A stretch of DNA of 34,600 nucleotides from a virus, in the IMG/VR virus record IMGVR_UViG_3300031673_000258, positions 1 to 34,600 of that record; one strand, written 5' to 3'. The notes below the pieces were generated by a model. That model did not search any database. It saw only the letters and a list, made by a program, of their open reading frames with translations, and had not been told where the DNA came from. This document shows, in pieces, positions 9,724 through 13,288 of the stretch. The first letter of the stretch is position 1. Every line of letters starts with the position of its first letter. A program made the translations under genes and the position numbers.

Positions 9724-9876
9724 CTAATCCCCTATGTCCCTTTTACGCTTACATGCTTCATAATGGCAGTCCCTAACAGAACCACAGTCATACAAGATAG
9801 TCATTATCTGTTCAATCCTTGCCTTTCTTTCCCTAGCTGCTTTCCTTTTCTGCAAAAGTTTCAGCAACCACTTCAT
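9724..9876 (-). CDS. 50-residue basic protein
   Basis: The ATG at 9876 is preceded by AGAAGGGGGTGGGG, a strong ribosome binding site that lies inside the end of the XRE gene. The product is highly basic (KLLQKRKAARERKARIEQI) with two Cys in the C-terminal third (YDCGSVRDC). The frame overlaps the regulator gene by 44 bp and stops one base before the next start region. Spacing and binding site support it as a real gene. The function is unknown. Confidence 0.6.
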   Translation of the reverse strand: MKWLLKLLQKRKAARERKARIEQIMTILYDCGSVRDCHYEACKRKRDIGD

Positions 9877-10096
9877 TTTCCCCACCCCCTTCTATTTCGA
9901 AAAGTTCGTCAAAAGTTTTTTGAAAACTTTCACACAGAATTTTTGCTGTCTTTGGGTGAACATATTTTGTATGGCCTGTTTCGATGTAATTATATGTAGC
10001 ACGATGTATTTTATCTTGAGTAATTTCAGAGATGGTTAAGCCATTTTTTATTTTTAGAATTTTAAAAAGGGAATTGTTTTTTACTTTTATTCGCAT
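9833..10096 (-). CDS. XRE-family transcriptional regulator
   Basis: The 87-residue product has a Cro/C1-type helix-turn-helix at about residues 10-65. It runs LFKILKIKNGLTISEITQDK, then HRATYNYIETGHTKYVHPKTA, then the closing FQKTFDELFE typical of this family. The ATG has GGGAGG eight bases upstream and a promoter at 10117-10145. As first gene of the early operon it probably controls the divergent region, acting as repressor or Cro-like switch. There is no second, larger C1-type repressor in the window. Confidence 0.85.
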   Translation of the reverse strand: MRIKVKNNSLFKILKIKNGLTISEITQDKIHRATYNYIETGHTKYVHPKTAKILCESFQKTFDELFEIEGGGENEVVAETFAEKESS

Positions 10097-10116: not shown

Positions 10117-10145
10117 ATTATATTTGACATCACTCGACAATGCAA
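10117..10145 (-). promoter_or_regulatory. Promoter of the early operon
   Basis: On the minus strand a perfect TATAAT (10122-10117) is 17 bp from TTGCAT (10145-10140). Transcription would start just ahead of the XRE gene. An imperfect TTG...CAA symmetry overlaps the spacer and may be a regulator site. Confidence 0.68.
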
Positions 10146-10200: not shown

Positions 10201-10281
10201 TACAGTCTGATTATAATGTAAAAATTATCAATAAATATATGTATTTGTAAATTACGGTAAATTTTTGTCGAATGCAGACAC

Positions 10282-10395
10282 AAAAAAAAGCCCCATCTAT
10301 AGAGGCTACACATAATACGACTTATTTCCCTTGATTTGTCTATTTTATTATGATACACTGGATAGTTTCAATCCTTGTTTTAATGGATTATGTTC
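10282..10395 (-). ncRNA. Candidate RNA anti-CRISPR: solitary CRISPR-repeat-like unit
   Basis: Predicted minus-strand RNA of about 114 nt. The first 31 nt (10395-10365) look like one CRISPR repeat: GAAC lead, stem AATCC, 10-nt A-rich loop, stem GGATT, then GAAAC, so the 3' end reads ATTGAAAC, the tag common in type I and III repeats. About 57 nt of AT-rich sequence follow. An intrinsic terminator ends it: AGCCTC, 7-nt loop, GGGGCT, then seven T (10307-10282). No second repeat or cas gene is present. Phages are known to carry solitary repeat units whose RNA hijacks Cas proteins (Racr). Identity here is inferred from structure only. Confidence 0.55.
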
Positions 10396-10401
10396 TGTAG
10401 C

Positions 10402-10429
10402 ATAATATGTCAATGATTAATTTTGTTAA
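10402..10429 (-). promoter_or_regulatory. Promoter of the candidate small RNA
   Basis: Minus-strand TTAACA (10429-10424) and TATTAT (10407-10402) are separated by 16 bp, each one base from consensus. A start seven bases downstream falls on G at 10395, the first base of the repeat-like unit. An alternative TTGACA at 10413-10408 pairs with CATAAT at only 15 bp and would cut into the repeat. Confidence 0.6.
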
Positions 10430-12088: not shown

Positions 12089-13288
12089 ATGAAAGATTTA
12101 CATCCAGGACTATTATTTTTAACATTCGTGGCAGGTATCGTAATATTAGCACTTAGTTCAGTATTTACTTACATATTTTTTACAACTCTTACACCTGGGT
12201 ATCTCGGAATATTACTGGGTGTATTTGGTGTATGTAACGATATTGGGAAAATTGCTTTCTTGCCCGCTACTGTATTATGTGTCATGGCAAATAGAAAGGG
12301 ATCGGCTGCCTTCTTTCTTTGTTTGTGGTTAGGTTGTTTTTCGATTAGCCTAGTAGCCAGTCAGGGTTTCGATTTGAACCAGAAAACAAAAATCAAAAAT
12401 GAGGCATTAACTACATCTGACGATTATAAAAGACAGCAAGCTTTGTTCGGAACTGAAAGTTCGAGCATTCAGGATTTAAAGAAAAGCATCACATCCCTTC
12501 GTTCTTCCAGAGACAAAGAAATCAAAAACAGTTCAGCTAACTTAAAAGGACAATTAGAAAATGCTCGTAGACTAGATTATATAACCACACCTGGTATTGG
12601 AGTAAATGCCATATCTGAAAAGATACGCAAGGCTGAGTCCTCTACTCGCTCTCGTATTGACTCTGATATAGCAATAAAGGAAAGACAGCTAAGACAAAAG
12701 GAAGCTGGATTAAATACTATTGATAAGGGCTTTGATAAAATGTCGAAGAACATTGACGCTACTGAGGGATTGATAACTTTCTCAAACTGGCTATCATCTG
12801 TAAGCGGACAGTATCCAGATAAAATAATAGGCTGGTTCTATATCTTCAAAAATGTATTCAGTGAGTTTTTGGGGCTAGGGTTGATAATGCTATCAGGGCT
12901 TGAGCTTAAACCTACCTCCCCTACCTCAAGAGAAATGAAGGAACCATCAAACAAACCAGGTATATTCAATAGATTAAAAAAATTCAGACCTTCTATGGCT
13001 ACAATAAAATCCAAGGTAACTCCTGAAAGTCAGTCCGGTACGAAACTACAAGACCACTACCCCACTCCAGAAGTTTCTAACGCAATTAAAGTTTATGCTT
13101 CTGCTGTCTTAAAAAATCCTAAGTCTGACAGGTCTTGCCCGGGGTTAACCACTATAGCCAAAAATACAACCCTTTCCCGGAATGATTTATTGAAAGCTAA
13201 GAGTTACCTGGAAGAAAAGAAAATACTGACAGTACAAGGAACTACCACGTATGTAAACGACGTAAATAAGCTAATGAGGTATACATAA
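12089..13288 (+). CDS. Membrane protein with coiled coil and C-terminal winged-helix-like domain
   Basis: The 399-residue product has three N-terminal hydrophobic segments (about 8-33, 37-66, 72-90). A long charged coiled coil follows (about 95-225), then a fourth hydrophobic segment (about 245-270). The C-terminal tail of about 130 residues ends in a winged-helix-like block (CPGLTTIAKNTTLSRNDLLK, then YLEEKKILTV). No family is recognised. The layout suggests a sensor or anchor that ties a DNA-binding domain to the membrane, perhaps for exclusion or partition. It is the largest gene of the accessory operon, and its ribosome binding site is AAGGGGG. Confidence 0.65.
   Translation: MKDLHPGLLFLTFVAGIVILALSSVFTYIFFTTLTPGYLGILLGVFGVCNDIGKIAFLPATVLCVMANRKGSAAFFLCLWLGCFSISLVASQGFDLNQKTKIKNEALTTSDDYKRQQALFGTESSSIQDLKKSITSLRSSRDKEIKNSSANLKGQLENARRLDYITTPGIGVNAISEKIRKAESSTRSRIDSDIAIKERQLRQKEAGLNTIDKGFDKMSKNIDATEGLITFSNWLSSVSGQYPDKIIGWFYIFKNVFSEFLGLGLIMLSGLELKPTSPTSREMKEPSNKPGIFNRLKKFRPSMATIKSKVTPESQSGTKLQDHYPTPEVSNAIKVYASAVLKNPKSDRSCPGLTTIAKNTTLSRNDLLKAKSYLEEKKILTVQGTTTYVNDVNKLMRYT

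Follow-up and report, generated by a model that had tools for sequence, protein, structure and literature searches.

A solitary type I-B CRISPR repeat in a siphovirus-type genome as a candidate RNA anti-CRISPR

The window, as the whole 34,600-nt stretch of DNA analysed is called here, is a 34.6-kb virus record with siphovirus-type genes, and on its minus strand it carries a single 37-nt CRISPR repeat in non-coding DNA between promoter-like and terminator-like signals. This is probably a solitary type I-B repeat unit and a candidate RNA anti-CRISPR. The explanation favoured here, and held to be fairly likely, is that the unit encodes a small non-coding phage RNA, which imitates a host type I-B repeat and acts as an RNA anti-CRISPR (Racr) with a decoy-crRNA mode. 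It is an example of a recently described trick and not a new kind of system. Its interest lies in the subtype: the founding paper tested the function of no Racr directed against type I-B, a type with one of its main homes in Clostridia.

Anatomy of the repeat unit

On the minus strand a -35-like hexamer TTAACA (10424-10429) and a -10-like hexamer TATTAT (10402-10407), both located by a consensus scan and separated by a 16-nt spacer, lead directly into the repeat, which abuts TATTAT and reads GCTACAGAACATAATCCATTAAAACAAGGATTGAAAC (10401-10365). Transcription is predicted to start near G 10395, inside the repeat. The 25-nt core AATCCATTAAAACAAGGATTGAAAC (10365-10389) consists of a stem-loop, with AATCC (10389-10385) and GGATT (10374-10370) enclosing a 10-nt loop, and then a handle. 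The 3' end of the repeat is ATTGAAAC (10372-10365), giving a predicted 8-nt crRNA 5' handle AUUGAAAC (10365-10372), and as Cas6 products carry an 8-nt handle (PMC3783184, PMC4326828) the predicted Cas6b cut falls between 10373 and 10372. A 57-nt spacer-like segment follows (10308-10364), and then an intrinsic terminator detected by a terminator scan (10281-10307), the hairpin of which, AGCCTC-TATAGAT-GGGGCT at 10307-10289, has a 6-bp stem and a 7-nt loop and is succeeded by eight T as the U-run. A preliminary description made from the sequence had proposed this arrangement, and on checking, its promoter, start, stem, tag, 57 nt and terminator were all at the minus-strand places it had given. 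It had taken the repeat to be a 31-nt unit; the repeat is real, but the full-length match to the Rfam family described below gives a length of 37 nt, with the first 6 nt upstream of the presumed start.

The promoter hexamers match the consensus at 10 of 12 positions and lie within the 250 bp upstream in which SRUFinder looks for a promoter, but matches of such quality are common by chance (6 found against 3.7 expected in 600 bp) and the single match is not significant alone. The terminator is the rarer signal, with 1 found against 0.3 expected. The signals of the proposed promoter-terminator unit are present, the promoter match by itself staying at chance level. That they flank the repeat speaks for a transcription unit without proving one.

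No ORF of at least 80 aa overlaps the unit, which therefore lies outside confident ORFs. The absence of a second repeat, as originally described, was borne out, the core having no other copy in the whole window even with up to 6 mismatches allowed. Nor did the 100-bp flanks contain a full or partial second repeat, being no more repeat-like than shuffled flanks. No acr or cas gene was recognised beside the unit, as had also been claimed for cas genes.

Repeat identity and subtype

A cmscan of the whole window against Rfam matched 10365-10401 (minus) to CRISPR-DR7 (RF01320) at 49.4 bits (E 2.3e-7; model positions 1-37 of 37), where the gathering score is 37, and this was the only Rfam family above threshold in the window. 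The initial argument that the unit was more than a chance 8-mer is upheld by this score and by the identity of the core to array repeats; a chance origin of the repeat is excluded.

The core was found exactly in 34 stretches of GTDB genomes, most of which were real arrays with a period of 72-75 bp. Arrays with core-identical repeats occurred in both bacteria and archaea, including Clostridium sulfidigenes, C. simiarum, C. ihumii, Herbivorax, Marinisporobacter, Desulfobacteraceae, Bathyarchaeota and others. The cas proteins sampled at such loci were Cas6b (PF17262/PF17955), Cas7/Csh2, Cas5b, Cas3, Cas4, Cas8b/TM1802 and Cas1, a type I-B set. I-B cas genes together with Cas6b were found in the genome or contig of C. 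simiarum (L036), C. sulfidigenes (L027), C. ihumii (L020/L017), Herbivorax (L009) and Marinisporobacter (L026). Alignment with Clostridia repeats had been set as a test of the original idea, and the unit does match type I-B repeats; the tag had been ascribed to type I and III systems, of which type I-B with Cas6b was confirmed, whereas the few array loci typed showed no cas genes of type III. DR7 repeats were present in 11 of 391 genomes in an even draw from Clostridia, the class of Herbivorax.

The 5' 12 nt of DR7-type repeats differ among hosts, and the window version fits the 5' profile of the arrays (p 0.011). The full 37-mer of the window was in no GTDB contig and equals no known array repeat. 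The nearest array repeats found agreed at 32 of 37 positions over the full length, or locally over 32 nt with 1 mismatch (L011); for comparison, SRUFinder detects units at a threshold of at least 90% identity over at least 90% of the repeat in a database of 17,823 repeats (PMC10651486). Searches with mismatches in three Clostridia orders returned only arrays at 3 mismatches in 33, and a search of the literature for the repeat sequence string found none. From the type I-B array matches and the lack of an identical 37-mer it follows that the phage has an I-B repeat of the Clostridia kind, the exact host of which was not found.

The segment downstream of the repeat

A guide function of the 57-nt segment was considered and rejected, nothing above chance being found in the window (no self target), the fetched loci (no target), INPHARED phages (no match), PLSDB plasmids (a chance-level match only, 27 nt, E 0.2) or 2.9 million viral contigs (no 20-nt seed match). 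Conversely, no spacer of the fetched arrays matched the window phage.

These searches bear on the reading of the unit as a one-spacer mini-array, in which the phage would draw on its host's I-B machinery, with the ~36 nt directly following the repeat as a real guide against a competing phage, a plasmid or a host gene. Arrays with the same repeat have spacers of ~36 nt (~73-bp period), a second repeat is dispensable for a I-B crRNA (PMC4326828), archaeal virus mini-arrays act in such a manner (PMC11656645), and some viral contigs with the core have two repeats. However, an array or mini-array has two or more repeats, whereas the window unit has a single one and no second repeat bounding a spacer, and its segment is without a target in the searched collections, so that the mini-array reading is considered unlikely.

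The same core in other mobile elements

A slightly wider core pattern occurred in 24 stretches on 23 viral contigs, with 0 matches to a reversed-pattern control; about 14 of the stretches were clean single copies and a few were pairs. Several of the contigs carried genes plainly of viral origin (terminase, portal, tail, DNA polymerase, replication). Among the single copies only that of L123 lay in a long ORF, while three others overlapped ORFs of 83-91 aa that are possibly spurious. Agreement with array repeats could extend over the full length: all 37 nt of the unit in L002 equal the array repeat of L006, and the unit of L004 matches a Desulfobacteraceae array repeat (L008) at all but one of the 37 positions. 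A single copy was also found on a plasmid, a Clostridia contig with ParA and Rep3 (L104, G049:C10, 7947-7983, minus), where a terminator lies 34 nt downstream; the genome concerned (G049) has Cas6b beside its own DR7 repeats, so the plasmid unit matches the subtype of its host.

This recurrence is relevant to the possibility that the window unit is a captured host repeat without present function, left behind by an array or by recombination. Capture would be expected to yield identity to host repeats, and L040, a syntenic relative of the window phage, is without the unit. On the other hand there is no trace of a leader, a second repeat or cas DNA, the core is perfect, the repeat sits between a -10-like box and a terminator, and the core recurs, mostly outside ORFs, in unrelated virus contigs. 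In view of the perfect core, the placement between signals and the recurrence a relic is the less likely explanation, and it is regarded as quite improbable. It had been held that conservation limited to the flanking DNA would count against a functional unit; the opposite pattern was found, with the core in unrelated contigs and syntenic flanks in L040 lacking it.

About half of the viral units retain the 25-nt core alone with a random-like 5' end, and only the Cas6b stem-loop and handle were always kept in the other viral units; because the search was anchored on the core, such retention is merely suggestive. It is nevertheless of relevance to the idea, put forward for certain repeat-like sequences of viruses in the discussion of PMC10651486, that the repeat lures Cas1-Cas2 into integrating there or serves for recombination into host arrays. 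The leader-repeat junction, which lies at the 5' end, is where integration takes place, but several viral units keep the 3' core only, as far as the core-anchored and hence partly biased search can tell, and the integration reading is possible with little support, the most improbable of those weighed.

Two repeats were present in L003, L005, L106/L118, L114/L121 and L124. The mini-arrays of L106/L118 and L114/L121 lie on different viral contigs and have a common spacer and flanks, which reflects either the same virus or a conserved mini-array. In L109 (1705-1741), L117 (1673-1709, minus) and L113 (2759-2795, minus) the first 12 nt of the repeat belong to a long inverted repeat (10-13 bp) as its first arm, with the second arm tens of nt downstream; in L109 and L117 this second arm stands directly before a U-run, placing the repeat inside a terminator-like hairpin. 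Such a long-range inverted repeat is suggestive in L109/L117 and L113 and weak in the window. A solitary chromosomal DR7 repeat with an altered handle, ATTAAAAC, was observed near an AbiEii-like AAA ATPase (L102, G338:C1, 7086-7122, minus).

Proposed mode of action

Transcription, Cas6b cutting, loading and inhibition, and a decoy-crRNA rather than a RacrIF1-like mode, are all steps beyond the sequence that we infer for the favoured RNA anti-CRISPR. Transcription would run from ~10395, inside the repeat, to the terminator and yield an RNA of ~110 nt, of which host Cas6b would recognise the AAUCC/GGAUU stem-loop and cut 8 nt before the repeat end. The 23-nt 5' product may remain on Cas6b, and the 3' product would comprise AUUGAAAC, the 57 nt and the terminator hairpin. 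The latter would satisfy the minimal I-B crRNA, which has a 7-nt handle, a guide of at least 34 nt and no 3' handle (PMC4326828), and Cas5b, Cas7b and Cas8b might then assemble on a dud guide and be kept from real crRNAs. It is the predicted start inside the repeat that points to a handle-bearing decoy crRNA and an idle Cascade. More generally, it is suggested tentatively, as something that could well prove otherwise, that inhibition by type I-B solitary repeat units takes a route so far undescribed for Racrs, the downstream product with its handle serving as a complete decoy crRNA on which whole, idle Cascade complexes are built.

The isolated repeat folds as expected (-3.5 kcal/mol). In the full-length predicted RNA the repeat stem is present in only about half of the ensemble, where it competes with GGAU/AUCC and CAUAAU/AUUAUG pairings, and the overall predicted structure is no more stable than those of shuffled sequences. 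A further pairing concerns the alternative of a regulatory leader, in which the RNA, the terminator and Cas6b would form an attenuator tying the leftward early operon to the activity of the host CRISPR system. The HTH gene 9833-10096 and the replication genes do lie downstream of the unit on its own strand, and a 5' arm of the unit can pair with the pre-terminator segment, overlapping the first 3 nt of the terminator (12 bp with a 3-nt bulge). However, this pairing is weakly significant (p 0.018 against shuffled downstream sequence and 0.11 when the 5' arm is shuffled), alternative pairings are just as possible, and the early operon appears from its sequence to have its own TATAAT box near the first gene. 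An attenuator is accordingly possible with little support, and very unlikely.

Comparison with known systems

Like RacrIF1 and the other Racrs described by Camara-Wilpert et al. 2023 (PMC10651486), the window unit is solitary, intergenic and carried by a mobile element, has a promoter-like box just upstream, is without cas genes and matches repeats of a CRISPR subtype present in the presumed host clade. It differs in subtype, being of type I-B, whereas Racr function was established experimentally in that study for I-C, I-E, I-F and V-A. It differs also in geometry. In RacrIF1 a ~70-nt product upstream of the Cas6f cut inhibits through Cas6f and Cas7f (PMC10651486), whereas in the predicted RNA of the window unit only ~23 nt precede the cut, and inhibition would more likely come from the downstream product with its handle. 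A long RNA upstream of the cut for a Cas7 filament, as in RacrIF1, would thus be missing, which would change if the start lay further upstream, and the RacrIF1 mechanism is not applicable unchanged. The original proposal of an RNA anti-CRISPR is hence supported by the sequence at the level of a candidate, though not in the RacrIF1 mode.

With CRISPR-DR7 (RF01320) the unit has in common the full length, the stem-loop and the AUUGAAAC tag, but DR7 comprises array repeats and the window has a single one. Virus-borne mini-arrays (reviewed in PMC11656645) likewise have a host-borrowed repeat, from which the window unit differs in having one repeat and no target for its segment.

The window unit, the other viral units with the DR7 core and the one plasmid unit make up a compact, testable set. 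This set could decide whether repeat mimicry always acts via RNA upstream of the Cas6 cut, as in RacrIF1, or also through decoy crRNAs. If the anti-CRISPR reading is true, such units would also offer a natural means of switching off genome editing by endogenous I-B systems in laboratory strains of Clostridium. A small phage RNA has reportedly been found to inhibit Cas13 by crRNA mimicry (Hayes et al. 2025, cited in PMC13187072). There too a small phage RNA mimics crRNA and occupies the effector, but the target is of type VI and the likeness one of structural resemblance, whereas the window unit has sequence identity to type I-B repeats.

Genome neighbourhood

The window encodes a portal, an HK97-type head protease and capsid, a tape measure, a partial terminase, Gam, SSB and a primase/helicase. 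When relatives were sought by RecT and primase, L040 was the only close, syntenic relative of the window phage, sharing RecT and SSB to one side of the locus and, to the opposite side, the 399-aa and zinc-ribbon proteins. Since L040 is syntenic and, as the nearest relative, lacks the repeat unit, the unit is separable and was gained or lost in a lineage-specific way.

Two copies of TGTCGAnTGnnGnCA were observed, at 10125-10139 on the minus strand and at 10266-10280 on the plus strand, one of them just beyond the terminator of the repeat RNA. They are the only copies in the window within 1 mismatch, against 0.28 expected, and are likely operators of the HTH regulator 9833-10096. At 12089-13288 (plus) the window encodes a putative membrane protein of 399 aa, which belongs to no PHROGs family; it shows a weak C-terminal helix-turn-helix match and has a distant homologue (29%) in L040.
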